Shown: positions 12,945-28,409, counted from the stretch's first letter. The stretch: 40,255 nt of DNA from an uncultured Opitutales bacterium (GCA_944389575.1 CALXMX010000097.1:1-40255); one strand, 5' to 3'. The notes: generated by a model not told the origin, from the sequence alone. Numbers and translations are program-made.

Positions 12945-13298
12945 GGCGGGTCGCAGCCTGCGGGAACCGCGCAAATGCGAAGGCGGCCCCGGCGCGCAAT
13001 TTCCAAAATGCGCCAATAAAACCGCCGGGATTACGGCGCGGCGGCAGGGGGGCATTATAGGCGGTGCGGAAGTCCGCATTATAGGGAATCCGCATTATAT
13101 TTTCATAAATAATCGCAAGCGGCGCATGAATATCGCCCTTCAAAAAACTTTTTTTCGCGACAGTTTTTTTCGGCGAATACTCCCCTTTGCGGCGCGAGCC
13201 AAAATTTCCGCAAAACTCCGCATGGCGACACGGCACACCCGCGCCTGCGCGCGCAAACGGTCGGTCAAAAAAGTATCGGTTTTTTATCAAAAGCGTAT
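12945..13298. other. Intergenic region with three GCATTATA copies
   Basis: No gene recognised. GCATTATA occurs at 13052, 13075 and 13092 (spacings 23 and 17 bp), about 200 bp upstream of the promoter at 13299. The rest is GC-rich without clear structure. Confidence 0.4.
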
Positions 13299-13327
13299 TT
13301 GCATTTGGGCGCCCGCAATGTTAAAAT
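13299..13327 (+). promoter_or_regulatory. Sigma70-like promoter of the exported sugar-enzyme operon
   Basis: TTGCAT (13299-13304), a 17-bp spacer, and TAAAAT (13322-13327) give a good -35/-10 pair. Transcription would begin near 13334, leaving a leader of about 60 nt before the ATG at 13396. Confidence 0.55.
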
Positions 13328-13395: not shown

Positions 13396-14244
13396 ATGAA
13401 AACGCTCACATACGCAATGGCCGCAATGGCCGCGCTCGCGCTCTGCGCGTGCTCGGGAGTCGACGCAAAGGCAAAAAAGCCCGACCGCGAAAAACAAATC
13501 GCGGTGCAAAGCTACACATGCCACCAAATGAACCTGACGGACATGTTCAAAATGTTCAAGGAGCTCGGCGTAAAGAACGTCGAGATATGCGGCGGCAAGC
13601 TCGGCGGCGACTATCCGAGCGTCGGCGCCGGGCCAAACAGGAAGCCCGAACACCTGCAATTCCGCAAGGACATCGCGAAGAAAAGCGACAGCACCCTGAT
13701 TTCCTACGGAGTCTGCGCCCCCAAAGACGAAAAGGGGATAAAGGCGGTGTGCGAATTCGCCAAAGAGCTCGGCCTCAAATTCGTCTCGACCGAATGCGAC
13801 CCCAAGACGTTCCCGATCTGGGAAAAGTACTGCGGCGAATACGGCATAAAAATGTGCATACACAACCACGCCCGGCGCGACAAAAACCCCAACTACAAGT
13901 TCTGGGACTACAACTGGGTGGCAAAGGAAATCGCCCCCTACAAGAATATAGGCGTATGCGCGGACAACGGCGCGTGGGAATGCTCCGGGCTCAACAGCGT
14001 CGAAGGGGCGAAGGTTCTGGGAGACAAGATATTCATCGTACATCTGAAGGACCAAAAGAAGTTCAACGTCCGCAATTCCCCCGCCGTCATTTACGGCACG
14101 GGCGAAGTGGACGTTGCGGCCTTCCTCAAGCAGCTGGACAAGCAGGGGTTTGACGGCTACTTGATCATCGAGCACGGCAACGACCCCATCGAGGCCAAGC
14201 GCGACATAATATCCAAGGACATGGACTTTATAAGAAAGAATTAA
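13396..14244 (+). CDS. Exported lipoprotein sugar isomerase/epimerase (xylose-isomerase-like TIM barrel)
   Basis: 282 aa. A Sec signal with lipobox LCAC (C19) is followed by an AP-endonuclease-2/xylose-isomerase-like TIM barrel. Likely metal ligands are in STE, IHNH, CADNGAW, VHLKD and IIEHG, a Glu-His-Asp-His-Glu series. The ATG at 13396 is chosen over that at 13390 because the AAAGG is 7 nt away from it. The lipoprotein signal places the enzyme outside the cytoplasm, so it is unlikely to act on sugar phosphates despite the family name. It is first in an operon, 22 bp before a Gfo/Idh/MocA oxidoreductase gene. I infer a lyase, hydratase or epimerase acting on an oxidised sugar made by that partner. 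Confidence 0.83.
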   Translation: MKTLTYAMAAMAALALCACSGVDAKAKKPDREKQIAVQSYTCHQMNLTDMFKMFKELGVKNVEICGGKLGGDYPSVGAGPNRKPEHLQFRKDIAKKSDSTLISYGVCAPKDEKGIKAVCEFAKELGLKFVSTECDPKTFPIWEKYCGEYGIKMCIHNHARRDKNPNYKFWDYNWVAKEIAPYKNIGVCADNGAWECSGLNSVEGAKVLGDKIFIVHLKDQKKFNVRNSPAVIYGTGEVDVAAFLKQLDKQGFDGYLIIEHGNDPIEAKRDIISKDMDFIRKN

Positions 14245-14266
14245 ACGGGCGCAGGAGGAGCAGTTC

Positions 14267-15601
14267 ATGAACAGAAAAGACTTCTTAAAAACCGCATCGG
14301 CCGCCGGATTGGGCGCGATTGCGCTGCCGAAGTTTTCGCTCGGCGCGGGGCTGGGCGGGGAAAAAATTAAAGTTGCCTTCGTCGGCTGCGGCGGAAGGGC
14401 GCGCGGCGCAATCCAGAACATGACGGCCGCCGACGAAAACATACAGATTGTCGCCCTGGCGGACATATTTGAAAAGCAGATTGAAGACTTCACAAAATCC
14501 GCGCGCGAATACGTAAGCAAATCCAAAAGGGACAAGGCCGACGCGTTCTGGAAGGACTATTGGAAAGTGACGCCGGAAACGACCTTCATAGGCCTGGATT
14601 CCATCGACAAGGTTCTCAAAACCGACGCGCAGGTGATAGCGCTCGTCACGCCGCCGTGCTTCAGGACGTCGCAGATTGAAAAGTGCCTCAAGGCCGGCAA
14701 GCACGTCTTTGCCGAAAAGCCCATAGCAATCGACGCCGTGCAGCTGCGCAAAATATACGACGAGCTAATTCCGCTGGCGGACAAAAAGGGGCTGAAGGTT
14801 CTCTGCGGAACGCAGATGCGCTACCACAAATGGATAGCCGAAGCCGTCGACAAAATAAGGGGCGGCGACATCGGCGACATACTCGCCACAAACTGCTTCA
14901 GATACGAGGGCTACTACCTGACCCGCGGCACCTTCCGCGCCATACCGAATTCGGACATGTCGCCCGACGACGTGAAGTACCAGCTGATAAACTGGCTGGG
15001 GTTCATTTGGACTTCCGGCGACCAGGTGGTGGAGCAATACGTCCACAACCTCGACATGGCGCTGTGGGCGCTGGGGGAGCTTCCCTACGAATCGATAGGC
15101 TCCGGAGGGCGCAGCACAAACCTCAAATTCCCGGAAGAGGGCGATAGGTTCTCGAACATCCACGCCTATCTCACGTTCAAAAACGGCTTTACCATGAACG
15201 CTGAATGCCGCCAGGACAACGGCACAAGCCCGTTCTCCGCTCTGCACATCTACGGCACGAAGGGAATGGCGAGCCTCACTTTCGGCAAGCAGTATTTTTA
15301 CGACACTAAGGGCAATCAAGTGTGGACCTCCAGCGGAGACAGAAAACCCGAGCTCGTCTGCGAGCACGAGGCCCTATTCGGCGCAATCCGCAACGGCACT
15401 CCGTTCAACACGCTGAAGGCCTGCGCGGATTCGTGTTATGTCGCCGTGGCGATCAGAGAGACCTCCTACGCCGGAAAGCGCGTCAAGTGCGAATACTTCC
15501 GCCAGAAATCCACTCAGAGCCTCGTTCCGGAAACGCTGTCTTTAGATGGCAAGAAGGCCCTCACGCCCGTGCCGAATCCCGTGGACTACAAGATACTCTA
15601 A
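14267..15601 (+). CDS. Tat-exported Gfo/Idh/MocA family oxidoreductase
   Basis: 444 aa. The N-terminus MNRKDFLKTASAAGLG is a Tat-like signal with RK in place of RR, followed by a hydrophobic stretch. The dinucleotide-binding fold starts at IKVAFVGCGGRARGA. HVFAEKPIAID carries the family EKP motif, and EQYVHNLDMALWALG has the HNxD catalytic segment. The C-terminal domain is full length. Exported members fold in the cytoplasm with bound NAD(P) before Tat transport and oxidise or reduce sugars. AGGAGG at 8 nt supports the start. Two hairpins follow the stop. It resembles the protein at 27093-28409 (shared GRS, GDRFS and EQxVHN blocks). The exact sugar is unknown. Confidence 0.9.
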   Translation: MNRKDFLKTASAAGLGAIALPKFSLGAGLGGEKIKVAFVGCGGRARGAIQNMTAADENIQIVALADIFEKQIEDFTKSAREYVSKSKRDKADAFWKDYWKVTPETTFIGLDSIDKVLKTDAQVIALVTPPCFRTSQIEKCLKAGKHVFAEKPIAIDAVQLRKIYDELIPLADKKGLKVLCGTQMRYHKWIAEAVDKIRGGDIGDILATNCFRYEGYYLTRGTFRAIPNSDMSPDDVKYQLINWLGFIWTSGDQVVEQYVHNLDMALWALGELPYESIGSGGRSTNLKFPEEGDRFSNIHAYLTFKNGFTMNAECRQDNGTSPFSALHIYGTKGMASLTFGKQYFYDTKGNQVWTSSGDRKPELVCEHEALFGAIRNGTPFNTLKACADSCYVAVAIRETSYAGKRVKCEYFRQKSTQSLVPETLSLDGKKALTPVPNPVDYKIL

Positions 15602-15650
15602 AGCCGCGCGAAGGCAAGAATCGGCGGCGCAAAAATAAGCAAAAAACAAG

Positions 15651-15701
15651 GGCGGCAAAGAGCCGCCGCCGCGCCGCGCCCTCTTTGCGGTGGCGCGGCG
15701 C
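15651..15701 (+). other. Two adjacent intercistronic hairpins
   Basis: GGCGGC-5 nt-GCCGCC (15651-15667) is followed by a perfect 10-bp stem, GCGCCGCGCC/GGCGCGGCGC, with an 11-nt loop (15671-15701). No T-run follows. It lies in the 142-bp gap between the oxidoreductase and the second TIM barrel and could protect the upstream message or set uneven expression; the function is inferred. Confidence 0.55.
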
Positions 15702-15743
15702 GCTTAAATTTCAAATCCGTCAACCTGAAAAAAAGGAAACGCA

Positions 15744-16712
15744 ATGGACAACATTTCAAGGAGAACTTTTCTTACCAAAGGCGCGCTCGCCGCGGTGTGC
15801 GCGCCCGCGCTCGGAACGCTTTTCGGCTGCTGCTGTTCGTCCGACGGCGCCGCGGGCGCCAAAGCCTCAAAGCCGGCGCGCTACAAACTGGCCGTCACCG
15901 ATTGGGACGCCGCAGTGAAGGGTCAGCCCAATCCGGACGTTTTTGAAACGGCGAAGCTCGCCGGGTTGGAGGGAATACAGCTCTCGGCCTCGCGCAAGGA
16001 TTTGGACGACATCTCGGCAATGTCCGAGGCAAATATCGCCCGCAACAAAAGGCGGCTTGCCGAAACGGGATTGGCCTGCGTGTCGGTGTGCACGCCATAT
16101 TCCCACAAGTTCACGTTCTGGGAAGATCCGAAGAGCTACGAATACCTATGCAGCGCGGTTGACGCGACAGTCGCTCTTGGGGCGGACAACATGCTCATTC
16201 CGTTCTTCGGAAAGAAATCCGCGATGAACAGGCGCGAAGTCGACGGCGAGATAAAAATCGGTGGGGAAATAATACCGGAATTTCAAAACGCGGTTGTGGA
16301 AAAGCTGAAGGCCGTCGCTCCGTACGCCGAGAGCAAAGGGGTTGTATTGTGCCTTGAAGACAGCATATCGGCGGACGACAACATCAAAATCATAGACGCC
16401 GTGGCAAGCCCCGCAGTCAAGGTGTATTTCGACATATACAACGTGGAGCACTACGGCTTCGACACCGTGGACGCGCTAAAAAAGCTCAAGAACGGATACA
16501 TCGGCCAGGTGCACATAAAGACTAAGGGCGGACTCTTGGACAAGGAAACCGAAATGCCGAAAAATATGGAGCAGATCTGGGACGGCTTGCTCGACAGCGA
16601 TTACAGCGGCTGGCTCGTGCTGGAATTTCAGGCAAAGCCCAAGAACATGTCGCGCGTGGAGCTTTTGAAATACAATGCGGACGCGCTAAGGAGGACAAAG
16701 CTGTTCTCGTAG
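15744..16712 (+). CDS. Tat-lipoprotein sugar isomerase/epimerase TIM barrel
   Basis: 322 aa. The N-terminus SRRTFLTKGALAA (residues 5-17) is a Tat motif, and the hydrophobic part ends in lipobox LFGC (C29), so this is a Tat-dependent lipoprotein. The mature part is an AP-endonuclease-2-like TIM barrel with candidate metal ligands in LCLEDS, YFDIYNVEH, QVHIKT and LVLEF. AAGGAA lies 6 nt before the ATG. It is third in the operon with the lipoprotein TIM barrel and the Gfo/Idh/MocA enzyme. Tat export suggests that it folds and takes up its metal in the cytoplasm. The substrate is unknown; an oxidised sugar released by the preceding enzyme is the simplest inference. An intrinsic terminator follows the gene. 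Confidence 0.85.
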   Translation: MDNISRRTFLTKGALAAVCAPALGTLFGCCCSSDGAAGAKASKPARYKLAVTDWDAAVKGQPNPDVFETAKLAGLEGIQLSASRKDLDDISAMSEANIARNKRRLAETGLACVSVCTPYSHKFTFWEDPKSYEYLCSAVDATVALGADNMLIPFFGKKSAMNRREVDGEIKIGGEIIPEFQNAVVEKLKAVAPYAESKGVVLCLEDSISADDNIKIIDAVASPAVKVYFDIYNVEHYGFDTVDALKKLKNGYIGQVHIKTKGGLLDKETEMPKNMEQIWDGLLDSDYSGWLVLEFQAKPKNMSRVELLKYNADALRRTKLFS

Positions 16713-16735
16713 TCCGCCGCGCCGCGCAAAGCTTG

Positions 16736-16763
16736 AAAAGCCGCATGGAGTGCGGCTTTTTTT
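16736..16763 (+). terminator. Intrinsic terminator of the exported sugar-enzyme operon
   Basis: AAAAGCCGCA and TGCGGCTTTT form a perfect 10-bp stem with a 5-nt loop (TGGAG), running into a T-tract. It lies 23 bp after the stop of the third gene. Confidence 0.92.
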
Positions 16764-17553
16764 GTATGCTCATTTTGCCCGCAACAGCCGCGCGATTTGA
16801 AAAGCGATTTTTATGCAAACCGCGCGCGGCAACGCAAACAATTCAACTCCCGGAGGCGCGCCGCGCCAAAGACGCCTTGAATTTTTCAAGAACGGCCGGC
16901 GCGAACTTCAACAACTCAACAGCCGCGCGCATGCAAAGCGGCACAAGGCATTCTCTTCATGCGTAATTTTCGCGCCTTCGCCCAAAGTAAATGCGCTCTA
17001 ACTACGGTTTCTCAAAATTCAATCGCCCTAAAAACCTTTCCCTAAAAAATTGATACATGCGCCGGCGCGGCGCTAAACGCTGGCGGATACATACGCCGGC
17101 GCGATCTCAAGCATTGGCAAAATCCGGCTCAAAGGCGCCCCTAAAAAAAATAAAAACGCGCCTCCACCATGCGCGTATGCTCGGCTTGCTGCCGCCTGAA
17201 CACACATGCGCCGGCGCAATGCGGAATATCCGATTTTTCCACTTTTTAATTCCGCCTTTTAGTTTTGGACGCAAACCCTTAAAAATTCCTTTCGCGCCGA
17301 CACCCCAAGTAAAATTCGCGCCGTTTAAAACGCCCCGGGAAAAAGCGCAAAAACAATTAGGCTAAAAGCTATTCACGCCCCGCCGCACAAAATCCGTTGG
17401 AGATAACTTTTTTTGTCGAAAGAACCCCGGCGCGCGGCAAACGACCTACAAACCCGGCCGCAAAGACCTTCCGCCATAAAGCGGCGCGCGGCAGAACTTC
17501 CGTCAACGCGCGGCAAATAGGGAAAACGCGCGCACAAGAAAGCTGCGGCGGCG
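16764..17553. other. Long gene-free region with a repeated GATACATGCGCCGGCGC motif
   Basis: No gene recognised on either strand. An 18-bp unit (GATACAT-G/A-CGCCGGCGCG) occurs at 17052-17069 and 17086-17103 with one mismatch and 34-bp spacing; a shorter copy, ACATGCGCCGGCGC, is at 17204-17217. The core CGCCGGCG is itself palindromic. No terminator with a T-run is visible downstream of the convergent beta-helix gene. Confidence 0.5.
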
Positions 17554-19002
17554 CTAAGGCTGGAACTCCAGGCCTTCGGCAAATTTAAATTCCTTCAGAT
17601 TGAGATCTTTCTTGCTTGTGATTTTTTTGCCGTTCACGATGAAATTCTTAAACGTTATTCCCGACACGTTCGAGTCTCCGTCAAAGCCCGCTATTCTCGA
17701 ATACGGCGGATTGTAGGGCGAGGTCACGGATATATTCTCCATGCGAATATTTGAAATCTTCCCGCGCTTTTCGTCGCGCGAATATCTGGAGAACATTATG
17801 CGGAAGTCGATAAGCCCCGCGCCGGTATCCTCCACGCGAATGTCCTTGTAGAGCACGTCGCGCACATGCGCCCTGTCTCCGTTGTGTATGGTGAACACCA
17901 TTTCCCCCGTAAGGGTTTCGGGATTGCGCTTTAGCTGGCGAACGTACCACGGATTGTCCTGCGTATGGATTATGTCGAGATTTTCAAACACTATGTTTTT
18001 TATTTCGTCTCCGCGCGTCTCAAATCCTATTTCGAGACAGTTGCCGTAAATTCCGTTCCACAATACGCAGTCGCGGACGGCGACGTTCTCGACGCTGTTG
18101 GGCTTAGAGTGATCGAAGTATCTGGCCGTATATCCGACGGCGGCCTTTATCGCGATGCAGTCGTCCCTGTTGTAGATAAAGGAGTTTTTCACGAGCACGT
18201 TCCTGCACGAGACTATGTCTATTCCGTCGTCCCAATCGGCTTTCCCCACGGTTTTTATGCCGTCAATTACGATGTCGCTGCTGGCGAAAATCGGTATCGT
18301 CCAGTTGGGCGACTGCACCGCGGTAATGCCCTCTATGCGCAAATTTTCGGTCGTGTTTATCTGAATGAGGTTTGAGCTTTTTCCCTGCCTGCGGGAGGCC
18401 CACGGAATCTTTTCGCCCGACAAAATTCCCCGCCCGCATATGCGAATGTCGCGCGACTGCGAAGCCCTGAAATTGTCCCCGGCCAAAAACGTGCCGTAGA
18501 CAATCGCCCCGCCCTCGATGTAAACCGTGGTGGAGCTTGGAATGAACGTCTCCTGCTCTATGTTGTGAATTTTGCCGGATTCAAAGAACATCACGTCGGC
18601 GTCGCCCTTCTTCGGGGCGTCGCGTTCGGGCGGATTGGCGAAGACGAAAAGCGGCCTTTCGAGATCGCCGTTTACCTCCACGCACAACAGCTGCGGCTTC
18701 GACAGGCTGAACACAATCTCCCCGTCCTCTATCTTGGGTTTTACGCCGGCTGACAACGGGCGCACTACCGCGCTCTCGACCTTGAAGAGCGGGCGTATCC
18801 TGACTTCCACCTCTCCGGCAATGTCAAAGTTGGCTATGTCCCCGCCGGGCGCGGGATACGCATAACACGGCTCGCCGTCCAAGAACACCTCGAAATTTTC
18901 GGATTTCGGAGCGTCCTCAGAATAGTTGTACGTCCTGAAATTCGCCCCCGCGCAGCCGCCCAAAAGCAGCGCCGTCACAATCGCAAAGATTAGCCTCGCC
19001 AT
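17554..19002 (-). CDS. Exported lipoprotein beta-helix glycoside hydrolase (GH28/GH49-like)
   Basis: 482 aa. The signal peptide has lipobox LGGC (C17). An N-terminal beta-sandwich-like region (about 25-150) precedes a right-handed parallel beta-helix with motifs DWDDGID (256-262), DDCIAIK (280-286) and GNCLEIG (320-326). The acidic pairs match the polygalacturonase (GH28) catalytic aspartates, but the GHG histidine segment is replaced by GNC; the two-domain layout also recalls GH49. It probably cleaves a polysaccharide at the cell surface. The ATG at 19002 is chosen over a TTG at 19008 because GGGGGAG lies 8 nt away. A good promoter precedes it and it is divergent from manC. Polysaccharide lyase or epimerase remain alternatives. 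Confidence 0.78.
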   Translation of the reverse strand: MARLIFAIVTALLLGGCAGANFRTYNYSEDAPKSENFEVFLDGEPCYAYPAPGGDIANFDIAGEVEVRIRPLFKVESAVVRPLSAGVKPKIEDGEIVFSLSKPQLLCVEVNGDLERPLFVFANPPERDAPKKGDADVMFFESGKIHNIEQETFIPSSTTVYIEGGAIVYGTFLAGDNFRASQSRDIRICGRGILSGEKIPWASRRQGKSSNLIQINTTENLRIEGITAVQSPNWTIPIFASSDIVIDGIKTVGKADWDDGIDIVSCRNVLVKNSFIYNRDDCIAIKAAVGYTARYFDHSKPNSVENVAVRDCVLWNGIYGNCLEIGFETRGDEIKNIVFENLDIIHTQDNPWYVRQLKRNPETLTGEMVFTIHNGDRAHVRDVLYKDIRVEDTGAGLIDFRIMFSRYSRDEKRGKISNIRMENISVTSPYNPPYSRIAGFDGDSNVSGITFKNFIVNGKKITSKKDLNLKEFKFAEGLEFQP

Positions 19003-22176: not shown

Positions 22177-24783
22177 CTAATTTGACTTAGGCGCGGGCGT
22201 CGATTCTGGCGAAGGGGCGCCTCCGCCGCGCTTCGCGCTGTCGAGCGGTGGAAGCGTCATCGTCGGACGGGTATCTGTGCGGACGGCCGACTCGTCTGAA
22301 TCCGCGTCCGAATCGGTGCGTCTTGAGGACTCGTCCTGCTCGAATATTATCTTTCTGCGGCCCTTGTTATAAATTATGCGCGGAGCGTTAACGCGGGTGT
22401 TGTCCTGCGTGTTCACCACCGTGGGATTTTCGGAAAGCACTATCATTTCCTCGTCCACATACAAATCCGCGCGCCCGCATTCGACCTCCTTAAGCGCCTG
22501 CGACATCTTGACGTTGCCGCGCATGATTATCTGTACAATCTCCTTCTGCGCGCCCGCGCGCGGAGGCCTCATTACGACCTCAATCCTGTCGCATTCCCCG
22601 TCGAGATCCGTTCCCGAAATGGAGACATTCCCCTCGAAGAAATATTTATCTACGCCGTCGGGGGTGGACATCAACCATTGCCTGTCGCTTTTTATGACGG
22701 TTTTGGAGGGCTTCTTGCCGGAAGCCAGCGAAGAGTCCAAACCCAAATTCCCGGTGGGAGGCAAAGTGACGGACGGACGTTTGCCGGGATTGTCCGGGGA
22801 AATCGAGAGCTCGACATACCTGTGTTCCGACTTTCCCGCTCCGTCCGTTTCCAGCCGCGGATAAATCGTCGCAATCTCCGAATCCGCCTCGTATCCGCGC
22901 TGCCTCAGGCGCACGTTGTTAGAGGCTACAATCTTATTTACGCGCGCGCTTCCCTTGCCGTCGGACTTTGCGAATACATCCATTTTCTCGCAGGTCGCCA
23001 CGGCGGAATCCGAGTCTATGCGCACATCGTTCAGGAATGTGAAAAACATGTTTTCGCCGCTTCTGCTGAACTGGAGGATTTTGGAGCTTACCACCGTCGG
23101 CGCGCTCCGCTTTCGGGAAGCTGCCGGGCGGGCGCGGCCCGGCGCCTTTTTGGGAGCGGGCGCGGAGAGTGCGCGCCTGTACTCGGCGGACGCCAGCTCA
23201 CCACTTATTTCGAGGCGAACGCGGGAATCCTTCCGCCCTCCCCCGGCTTTATCCGACATCGCCTCCGAAAGGGCGACGCCGCTGTTCTTTTCCCTTTGAA
23301 AAATTATTACCGCACTCTTGAGTATCGTTCCGCGCTTTGAATCGCGCAGGCTGGCCCTGCCGGTCAGCCACACCTCCGACTTCTTCGGAAGTATTTCTAT
23401 ATTGTCGGCAACCGCGTCGCCGTCGTCGTTGGAGAACTTGACTCTCCCCTTGCCCTTAATGGAGTCTATTTCCGCCTTTGAATCGCCGCCGCCTTTTGAA
23501 AACGCGGTCATTTCGTCGCACGCGGCGGTGAAGTCCGGAGCGGCCACCTTGACGTTTCCCTTGAAGTCGAACTCGTGTCTGGCGCCGGCGTCCCTCATCT
23601 CTATATTGTCCGCGGAAATGACTATCGTCTGCTTGCGCCCCTTGTCGTCTATGTGCAAAAGGACGGCGCGGGCGCGCGCGCTATCGGAGGAGCGGGCGAT
23701 TACCTTTTTGCCGGACTTATCCAAAAAAATCTTGTCGCCGAAAAGCGTCGCCTTGCTGGAGGCGTCGTATATGCTTGGCGAATCGCCCAAGAGCGCCGTC
23801 GATTTTGACGGAACGACAAACGCCGAACCCGACGTAGCCGAAAGCTTGTCGCGCTCGATTTTCACGTTGCCCTTTGCCGAGATGTCGCGCACGCCGCCGC
23901 CGGACTTCGGGGCCGTCACGACCATTTCATCGCAGGCTATCTTCATGTCGCCCGAATCGACGCGCACGTTTTTTTCGAGGCCGAACACGTTGTTTTCCGC
24001 GGAATGATCCAGCGTTGCCACGTCGGAAAAAAGCCAGGTTGAATCCTCCTTTTTGGAAGAATCCGCCTTTTGCGGAATATCCTTCGCGCCCTCCGCGGGA
24101 GCGCCGCCTTCTGGAGAATCGGAGGCTGGCGGAACTGAAACCTGCGGAGTTGAAGCCTTCGGAACCGAATCTTTCGGTGCTGAAGGCGCAGGAAGCGAAG
24201 CCTGCGGGGTCGAAGGCGCCGGGGTCGAAGGCGCGGCGGAAGAATTCGCCGCAGCGGACTCGGAGGAAGTGGGCGCCCCGGAATCCGGGGAAGCCTTGGA
24301 GCGGCCGAAAAAGTTTATCTTTACGTCGCCGAATACGCGCACGATTTTTTTTGCGCCGTCCCAATCCCAACGCGAGCCGGAGAGAGAAAATTCGTCCGCC
24401 TTCACGCCTATCGGGGACTGCCCGGTCACCGCTTTGGTGGACGGATTCACCTGCGCCTGCGGGCTGGTTATCTCGGCTCTCATGCGGGACTTGGCGTCGG
24501 CGTCGTAGAGGCGCAGGCGCATTCCGTCTATGTCTATGCGAGACTCGTCCACATAAGTGGCCTTGTCGCCGAAAAGCTCCCACTCCTTCCGGCCGCTCTT
24601 GTCGTCAAAGCTCGGAAGCTCGAAGTTCGTCATGTCGCCGACAAGCATCGTAGTCTGGCGCCGCGCGGCCTCCGCGGAGGCCGCCGCAAACGCCAGCGCG
24701 CAAATCGCCTGCGCCGCGAAAATTCGCGCCAGAACGCGACCAAAAACTCCAAAACTCGATTTCGACATCGGCGCCCGCAACAT
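22177..24783 (-). CDS. LptC-LptA-like fusion protein with four OstA-type repeats
   Basis: 868 aa. The signal or anchor is at about residues 7-40. An LptC-like unit (about 65-160: WELFGDKATYVDE ... VRVFGDVKINFF) precedes a Pro/Ser/Ala-rich linker (about 163-245). Four OstA/LptA-like beta units follow, near 248-360, 385-495, 564-640 and 700-815. Each has a Cys followed by an acidic pair (C284, C422, C598, C731) and a later (G/N)-x-V-(K/R) strand such as ISAKGNVKI or IMRGNVKM. Such modules form the periplasmic LPS bridge. Normal LptA is about 185 aa with one domain, so this is far larger. It starts 1 bp after the elbB stop. The LPS-transport role is inferred. Confidence 0.75.
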   Translation of the reverse strand: MLRAPMSKSSFGVFGRVLARIFAAQAICALAFAAASAEAARRQTTMLVGDMTNFELPSFDDKSGRKEWELFGDKATYVDESRIDIDGMRLRLYDADAKSRMRAEITSPQAQVNPSTKAVTGQSPIGVKADEFSLSGSRWDWDGAKKIVRVFGDVKINFFGRSKASPDSGAPTSSESAAANSSAAPSTPAPSTPQASLPAPSAPKDSVPKASTPQVSVPPASDSPEGGAPAEGAKDIPQKADSSKKEDSTWLFSDVATLDHSAENNVFGLEKNVRVDSGDMKIACDEMVVTAPKSGGGVRDISAKGNVKIERDKLSATSGSAFVVPSKSTALLGDSPSIYDASSKATLFGDKIFLDKSGKKVIARSSDSARARAVLLHIDDKGRKQTIVISADNIEMRDAGARHEFDFKGNVKVAAPDFTAACDEMTAFSKGGGDSKAEIDSIKGKGRVKFSNDDGDAVADNIEILPKKSEVWLTGRASLRDSKRGTILKSAVIIFQREKNSGVALSEAMSDKAGGGRKDSRVRLEISGELASAEYRRALSAPAPKKAPGRARPAASRKRSAPTVVSSKILQFSRSGENMFFTFLNDVRIDSDSAVATCEKMDVFAKSDGKGSARVNKIVASNNVRLRQRGYEADSEIATIYPRLETDGAGKSEHRYVELSISPDNPGKRPSVTLPPTGNLGLDSSLASGKKPSKTVIKSDRQWLMSTPDGVDKYFFEGNVSISGTDLDGECDRIEVVMRPPRAGAQKEIVQIIMRGNVKMSQALKEVECGRADLYVDEEMIVLSENPTVVNTQDNTRVNAPRIIYNKGRRKIIFEQDESSRRTDSDADSDESAVRTDTRPTMTLPPLDSAKRGGGAPSPESTPAPKSN

Positions 24784-27092: not shown

Positions 27093-28409
27093 TTAGGCCC
27101 ACTTGTACTTTCCGGGAACGGGAACCTTGACGGGATTGAGCGCCTTCAGATTCATATCCTTGGGCATCAAATCCTGATTCGCCTTTGCGACGTACGCCTG
27201 ATATTTGAACTTCTGTCCGGAGAAGGCGCTTTCGCGGCCGGCAATGGCGACGAGATTCGTGTTCAACAGCGGGCGCAGAGCATTGACGCGCTGCCCGTTG
27301 CGAATGGACTTCAGCAGCACGACGTGCTCGTTGATATACGGGTCGAGGCCGCCGCTTTTTGCGCGCATAATTTCCTTGCCGGTCTTTGCGTCGACAAAAT
27401 TTCTGCCCATGTTTGCGATTACGCCCTTCGAGAGCGTCACCCTCTCGCTGACGTCGCCGGAAGCGCCCGGATCCTGCTGGCAGTAGCTCTGCATTCTCAG
27501 GCCCTGGCCCATGTTGTAGTCAATCTGGAAGTGGCTGAAGCGGTCGCCGTGCTTGGGCGCTTCGAGGTCGTTGGAGCGGCCGCCGAGCCCGCGGAGATCC
27601 TCCGGGAAGCGGTTGTCGCCGAGCACCCACATGAGCACGTCTATATTGTGGACATGCTGTTCGACAATGTGGTCTCCGGAAGTCCATATAAACGCGCCCC
27701 ACTTGCGGATTTGGTACTCTATGGAGCTGATGTCCAACTTGAGCTTGTCGATGTTCGCCCCGCCGACATAGTAGCCCGCGTTCCAATAGCATTCCATGGA
27801 GATCGGCTCGCCGAATTCGCCGTCTTGGATTCGCTTTACCATGTCCACATAGCGGTCGGCATACCTGCGCTGGTTGCCGCAGACGACAGTCAGTCCCTTC
27901 TTGTCGGCCTCGTCGGCGAGTTTGTACATCTTGCGCGCCTGCGTTATGTCGACGGCGGCGGGCTTTTCAAGGAAAGCGTGCTTGCCCGCGGCAACTATCT
28001 TTTCAAAGTGCGGAGTGCGGAATATCGGCGGAGTGGCCTCTATAACCACGTCCACGTCCTCCTTGAGAAGCCCGTCAATGGCGTCAAATCCGCTGAACTT
28101 TTTAATCTTGTCGGGCTCGACGATTTTGGCGGCGACAGCGTCGTCGATTTTCGCCTTCTTCATGTTGTTCTGAATGCGCTTGAAGGCGTTTTCGGAGCGG
28201 TCCCCAAACAGGTCCGCAACCGCGACAAGCTTTATGTTTTTATCGGCCGTGGCCATATTCGCAAAAGCGCCCGTGCCGCGCCCGCCGCATCCGACAAGAC
28301 CCACCTTAATCGTATCGCTGCCCTTTACGGCCGCGAACGAAAATTTCGGCAACAGCGCCGCCGTCCCCGCGAGGGAACCAATTTTAACGAAACTCCTTCT
28401 GTCCATCAT
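27093..28409 (-). CDS. Tat-exported Gfo/Idh/MocA family oxidoreductase (second copy)
   Basis: 438 aa. MMDRRSFVKIGSLAGTAALL is a classic Tat signal (RRSFVK). The Rossmann fold opens with IKVGLVGCGGRGTGA. The EKP motif is HAFLEKPAAVD and the catalytic-domain segment is EQHVHNIDVLMWVLG. It shares the GRS, GDRFS and C-terminal IAGRES-type blocks with the enzyme at 14267-15601, so the two are paralogues, but this one is monocistronic. AGGAAA lies just before the ATG; 28406 is an alternative start. It has its own promoter (28457-28485) and terminator, so it is a self-contained unit that may be regulated separately. Probably an exported sugar oxidoreductase with bound NAD(P); the substrate is unknown. 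Confidence 0.91.
   Translation of the reverse strand: MMDRRSFVKIGSLAGTAALLPKFSFAAVKGSDTIKVGLVGCGGRGTGAFANMATADKNIKLVAVADLFGDRSENAFKRIQNNMKKAKIDDAVAAKIVEPDKIKKFSGFDAIDGLLKEDVDVVIEATPPIFRTPHFEKIVAAGKHAFLEKPAAVDITQARKMYKLADEADKKGLTVVCGNQRRYADRYVDMVKRIQDGEFGEPISMECYWNAGYYVGGANIDKLKLDISSIEYQIRKWGAFIWTSGDHIVEQHVHNIDVLMWVLGDNRFPEDLRGLGGRSNDLEAPKHGDRFSHFQIDYNMGQGLRMQSYCQQDPGASGDVSERVTLSKGVIANMGRNFVDAKTGKEIMRAKSGGLDPYINEHVVLLKSIRNGQRVNALRPLLNTNLVAIAGRESAFSGQKFKYQAYVAKANQDLMPKDMNLKALNPVKVPVPGKYKWA

Follow-up and report, generated by a model that had tools for sequence, protein, structure and literature searches.

Non-hydrolytic cleavage by way of 3-keto sugars is a recently recognised second bacterial way to break glycosides. 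We describe here three adjacent genes, called T1, GFO and T3, that may belong to this chemistry. They lie in a 40,255-nucleotide stretch of DNA from an uncultured Opitutales bacterium (GCA_944389575.1 CALXMX010000097.1:1-40255; the whole stretch is referred to as the window, and positions are counted from its first letter). GFO encodes an oxidoreductase of the Gfo/Idh/MocA family, whereas T1 and T3 each encode a triosephosphate isomerase (TIM) barrel.

In Bacillus smithii, the levoglucosan pathway LgdA-LgdB1-LgdB2-LgdC begins with a 3-dehydrogenation, after which two proteins named "sugar phosphate isomerase" carry out a beta-elimination and a hydration, the latter (LgdB2) enhanced by Mn2+ (PMC7676230). 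The route proposed here is alike in letting 3-dehydrogenation be followed by elimination and hydration on two barrel-type proteins of this kind; however, LgdA and LgdC make two dehydrogenases in the Lgd cluster, which has ATP-binding cassette (ABC) transporter genes nearby, while the trio has a single Gfo and all of its products are exported. With the 3-keto-O-glucoside beta-eliminase AtOGE of Agrobacterium tumefaciens (8bvk; PMC10628242) and the C-glycoside eliminases PuCGE and DgpBC, T1 shares the TIM barrel, a His-Asp-His-Glu metal site and the catalytic histidine of an HNH motif. In A. tumefaciens, C3 is oxidised by a flavoenzyme; T1 instead is an exported lipoprotein encoded beside a Gfo/Idh/MocA enzyme. 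The BT2156-BT2160 genes of Bacteroides thetaiotaomicron (PMC11300592, PMC9007349, PMC11501099) likewise combine a periplasmic glycoside 3-dehydrogenase, BT2158 (PMC11300592), with cleavage of a 3-keto sugar. There, one cleavage enzyme is BT2157, a DUF1080 (PF06439) protein (PMC9007349), whereas the trio has two TIM barrels; a Pfam search found the PF06439 domain in none of its three genes. In Escherichia coli YcjQ-YcjR-YcjS, a TIM barrel of the ketose 3-epimerase type stands between two sugar 3-dehydrogenase genes, as opposed to one dehydrogenase and two exported barrels in the trio. Literature searches for the present gene combination in Verrucomicrobia and Planctomycetes gave no direct report. 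The best explanation of the sequence data is that the trio works like the levoglucosan, Agrobacterium and Bacteroides routes, although the cut-offs place it outside the BT2158, LgdA, IolG/IolE and psicose epimerase families. On balance, T1, GFO and T3 probably form an extracytoplasmic module for the cleavage of 3-keto-glycosides.

The catalytic sites of T1, GFO and T3

A profile built from 14 T1 homologues matches AtOGE (PDB 8bvk) with an E value of 4e-13. In AtOGE, the metal is held by His132, Asp163, His189 and, weakly, Glu233, with His134 acting as the base; the H134A mutant is inactive and H189A has less than 0.1% activity (PMC10628242). The four ligands align to H156, D190, H216 and E259 of T1, and the base to H158. 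Among the 14 homologues, H156, D190, H216 and H158 are invariant and E259 nearly so. T1 carries all four metal ligands in a TIM barrel, as well as the base histidine in its HNH motif. This complete AtOGE-like site is the strongest functional clue of the case, and we propose on its sequence that T1 is a metal-dependent 3-keto-glycoside beta-eliminase. The predicted structure of T1 (predicted local distance difference test, pLDDT, 90.5) has its best match in 3p6l (Z 34.0, root-mean-square deviation, rmsd, 1.7, 247 aligned residues); the nearest structures, 3p6l, 3lmz and 4kw2, are uncharacterised Parabacteroides proteins, and 8ro4, the 2-hydroxy-3-keto-glucal hydratase AtHYD, came at rank 10 with Foldseek. 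AtOGE itself (8bvk) is not among the best 50 structural matches listed for T1, so that the link between the two proteins is carried by the sequence profile and the residue alignment.

GFO has a lysine (K151) in an EKP motif and a histidine (H260) in a VEQxxHNxD motif, both invariant and matching the lysine and histidine that serve catalysis in the Gfo/Idh/MocA family. It is similar to the models for BT_2158, BT_2159 and levoglucosan dehydrogenase, below their cut-offs, and the similarity to BT_2158 extends to all 15 members of the GFO alignment. GFO was rejected both as a BT2158 equivalog (NF058561, 40 bits against a cut-off of 750), the family being related only, and as a levoglucosan dehydrogenase LgdA (NF052479, 26 bits against 650). 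Since its scores fall far below all equivalog cut-offs, no substrate was assigned by family. Aldose-aldose oxidoreductase and glucose-fructose oxidoreductase in its precursor form are among the solved relatives of GFO. Both are exported enzymes with a tightly bound cofactor. GH109, a family of Tat-exported Gfo-type glycosidases with bound NAD, did not appear among the Pfam or PDB sequence matches, from searches of which none was aimed at that family. A second exported Gfo/Idh/MocA protein is encoded in the window at 27096-28406 (-); it has a canonical RR motif for twin-arginine translocation (Tat), is about 38-40% identical to GFO and has no TIM barrel gene alongside.

The T3 barrel is more equivocal. 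Residues E205, D230, H257 and E294, invariant in 20 homologues, align to positions of D-tagatose 3-epimerase (2ou4) that we take to be the metal and acid/base residues of that enzyme, giving T3 the Glu-Asp-His-Glu set of the D-tagatose/D-psicose 3-epimerase or YcjR type. Fold matches of the predicted structure (pLDDT 84.2) are ketose 3-epimerases, isomerases and YcjR (the last with Z 24.6, rmsd 2.7 and 242 aligned residues), all with Z values within about 2.5 units; naming the reaction from the fold alone was therefore dropped. T3 is no member of the D-psicose 3-epimerase family either (NF051856, 17.7 bits against a cut-off of 300), and its profile match to 8ro4 covers about 50 positions only (E 3e-5). 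By analogy, T3 may either hydrate a glycal, as LgdB2 does, or epimerise next to a ketone, as YcjR does; the eliminase-like character of T1 makes hydration slightly the preferred choice. Loss of the catalytic residues from the TIM barrels, which an earlier note on this DNA had named as a ground for giving up its proposal, is not what we find: judged by sequence, the sites of T1 and T3 are both intact.

Export signals and the proposed reaction sequence

The same note had claimed that all three proteins carry export signals, two of them of the Tat type. This holds, with a caveat for GFO. T1 carries a Sec lipoprotein signal (lipobox LCAC) and T3 a canonical Tat motif, SRRTFL, together with the lipobox LFGC. 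The signal in GFO is NRKDFLK, a Tat-like motif with the twin-basic RK where RR is usual and no strict twin arginine. Orthologues are alike: RK, RN or RR followed by x-F occurs in 15/15 GFO rows, the lipobox in 12/14 T1 rows and RR in 16/20 T3 rows. The machinery goes with the motifs, a TatC gene being present in the genome that carries the trio and in 18 of the 19 family genomes; no search of the nineteenth (G009) gave a match, and it was excluded. Signals and TatC speak against the cytoplasmic localisation that would have undone the earlier proposal.

The genes, their export signals, TatC, the folds, the conserved catalytic residues and the clustering described below are observed features of the module, and the following sequence of reactions would accommodate them. 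GFO would be exported folded, through Tat, together with its nicotinamide cofactor, and would oxidise a glycosyl unit at its C3 hydroxyl. In T1, tethered as a lipoprotein, His158 would take the C2 proton, whereupon the aglycone would be expelled and a 2-hydroxy-3-keto-glycal left. T3, a tethered metal-dependent barrel as well, would hydrate the 3-keto product to a 3-keto-aldose or epimerise it next to the ketone. Finally, GFO or a paralogue would re-reduce the 3-keto sugar and regenerate NAD+, so that no external cofactor would be needed. We infer the C3 regiochemistry, the bound NAD and the substrate from distant homologues; each of the reactions and the closed redox loop are inferred as well. 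Extracytoplasmic oxidation of a sugar, followed by isomerisation or cleavage through a 3-keto intermediate, had been suggested before for this locus; the export signals, the AtOGE-like site of T1, the epimerase-type site of T3 and the clustering of GFO with T1 and with T3 all support chemistry of this type, while the further idea of a variant with a different order of steps found no support.

Clustering in relatives and competing explanations

Relatives of the three genes were searched for in 13 searchable genomes of the genus, at E <= 1e-100 for GFO, 1e-20 for T3 and 1e-30 for T1, and each gene has relatives in all 13. When 223 genomes drawn from the order were searched, 16 of them, in three genera, had a strong relative of GFO (E <= 1e-85) and 13, in two genera, one of T3 (E <= 1e-45). 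The full trio is clustered in 3 of the 13 congeners: as T1-GFO-T3 in G000, as T1-GFO with T3 convergent in G016, and as GFO-T3-T1 in G010. There are partial clusters too: GFO stands with T3 in G011, G013 and G017, and with T1 in G018, twice in G008 and a second time in G010. Pairs are found well above expectation (T1-GFO, 7 against 0.67; T3-GFO, 6 against 0.21; T1-T3, 3 against 0.27), Poisson p values being indicative only as the genomes are related. In related genomes, where the earlier note had advised looking for the same trio, the genes do occur together, and in pairs above chance, with varying orders and strands; most congeners are without the full cluster. Proximity kept through such changes of order and strand argues for a functional link among the three genes.

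The neighbours in some relatives fit the release of a free sugar: in G008, GFO, T1 and an aldose 1-epimerase gene follow one another on one strand, and in G006 (L081 7768-11333) the GFO orthologue precedes a sodium:solute symporter gene on the same strand. In G012, an MFS transporter gene, a Tat Gfo gene other than GFO, and T1 stand in a row, the Gfo directly before T1. T3 genes recurrently adjoin exported beta-helix genes (GH28 in the window; L043 9619-11088, L050 6477-8990 and L054 6179-8695). Such a gene lies about 40-110 bases 5' of T3, on the same strand, in G016 (GH28, about 43 bases), G017 and G007 (both PF13229). These beta-helix/GH28 genes are one hint at the substrate. Elsewhere, a T1 paralogue divergently adjoins another Tat Gfo/Idh/MocA gene (L061 7045-9655, G000:C104).

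Several points weigh against a 3-keto-glycoside cleavage module. None of the three proteins is closely tied to an enzyme of proven activity: the NCBIfam equivalog cut-offs are missed by far, and inositol dehydrogenase gives GFO a higher score than glycoside 3-dehydrogenase does. By single sequence, the only solved relatives of T1 are uncharacterised proteins and T3 has none. T3 could have more than one role, and ketose 3-epimerases are favoured by its matches in both profile and fold. A complete cluster of the three genes is missing from most congeners. Finally, another cleavage enzyme is at hand, since the genome has four matches to PF06439 (3-keto-disaccharide hydrolase) elsewhere. One locus, L092 2280-4382 (G000:C17), has a tandem pair of PF06439-domain genes followed by a glycerophosphodiester phosphodiesterase gene.

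The T3 matches, YcjR among them, would also fit a route in which nothing is cleaved: GFO would oxidise a glycoside to the 3-keto form, T3 would epimerise it beside the ketone and GFO would then reverse the oxidation, the scheme annotated for E. coli YcjS/YcjR/YcjQ, with T1 as an accessory isomerase. The oxidoreductase-TIM barrel-oxidoreductase order of ycjQ-ycjR-ycjS agrees with this route; however, it leaves aside the eliminase-type HNH-D-H-E site of T1 and the pairing of T1 with Gfo genes in the absence of T3 (G008, G018, G012), and we regard it as unlikely. The scattering of paralogues of all three families over the genome, together with a complete trio in so few congeners and T3 on the other strand in G016, could also mean that three common exported enzyme families with different substrates are adjacent by accident. 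The enrichment of pairs over chance, and a proximity that survives reordering and strand switches among G000, G016 and G010, make this decidedly unlikely. Improbable above all is an exported cyclitol route, with GFO as inositol dehydrogenase, T1 as an IolE-type inosose dehydratase (also an elimination beside a ketone) and T3 as an IolI-type inosose isomerase: IolG is the best NCBIfam match of GFO (59.6 bits), T1 matches IolE (27.4 bits) and IolE and IolI structures are among the matches, but we rejected it as these scores are far below the cut-offs of TIGR04380 and TIGR04379 (355 and 290), IolD is above cut-off in 0/19 family genomes while three control genomes pass, and inositol catabolism in known systems is cytoplasmic.

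Genomic setting and significance

The host belongs to the Opitutales (Verrucomicrobiota); its genome comprises 2.1 Mb in 221 contigs, is 87% complete, and has the window as contig C97. Named near relatives are on record as Opitutales or Verrucomicrobiota. LptD and LptC domains occur together in a protein encoded at 22180-24783 of the window, which points to a Gram-negative envelope. The gene coordinates given earlier for the trio were borne out (Table 1), the T1 start at 13396 suiting the spacing from AGG better than 13390. Pfam matches are to PF01261 for T1 (E 6e-19) and T3 (E 2e-25) and to PF01408 for GFO (E 2e-13). A single promoter and a single terminator for the trio, as claimed in the earlier note, could not be established: the promoter match and the terminator-like hairpin are no better than in shuffled sequence, the hairpin is absent from the output of the scan that listed the promoter match, GFO and T3 are separated by 142 bases with a GC-rich hairpin inside, and T3 is on the opposite strand in G016, the closest relative (GFO 80% identical). 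We rejected a fixed three-gene operon, since in relatives the three genes may stand apart, in another order or on different strands.

Table 1. The trio and adjacent features in the window.
Feature	Position	Strand	Description
Promoter-like site	13298..13327	+	5' of T1; TTTGCA-18-TAAAAT, TG ahead of second hexamer; 9/12 matches, not above shuffles
T1	13396..14244	+	282 aa; xylose-isomerase-like TIM barrel, exported as a lipoprotein; site HNH-D-H-E; candidate beta-eliminase for 3-keto-glycosides
GFO	14267..15601	+	444 aa; Gfo/Idh/MocA oxidoreductase with Tat-like (RK) export signal; candidate glycoside 3-dehydrogenase holding NAD(H)
GC-rich hairpin	15671..15703	+	GFO-T3 gap; no U tract; z -1.5, not significant
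T3	15744..16712	+	322 aa; TIM-barrel lipoprotein with Tat (RR) signal; site E205-D230-H257-E294; candidate hydratase of 2-hydroxy-3-keto-glucal or epimerase of 3-keto sugars
Terminator-like hairpin	16735..16764	+	12-bp stem with T run, in the gap between T3 and the convergent GH28 gene; z -0.6, not above shuffles
GH28	17554..19002	-	exported lipoprotein, next gene after T3; PF00295, E 7e-14; possible functional partner

A bolder reading, possible though doubtful, is that the exported Gfo and the two tethered barrels make up a self-contained, redox-neutral glycosidase which, with a secreted beta-helix of the GH28 type, would cut linkages, or modified sugars, beyond the reach of ordinary hydrolases, and that the 3p6l/4kw2 family of gut bacteria consists of 3-keto-glycoside eliminases. 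If the cleavage module proposed here is real, eliminase-barrel chemistry would be at work outside the cytoplasm in uncultured Verrucomicrobiota, and a TIM-barrel family annotated only as "sugar phosphate isomerase" or similar (the relatives of 3p6l, 4kw2 and 3lmz) would gain a testable function.

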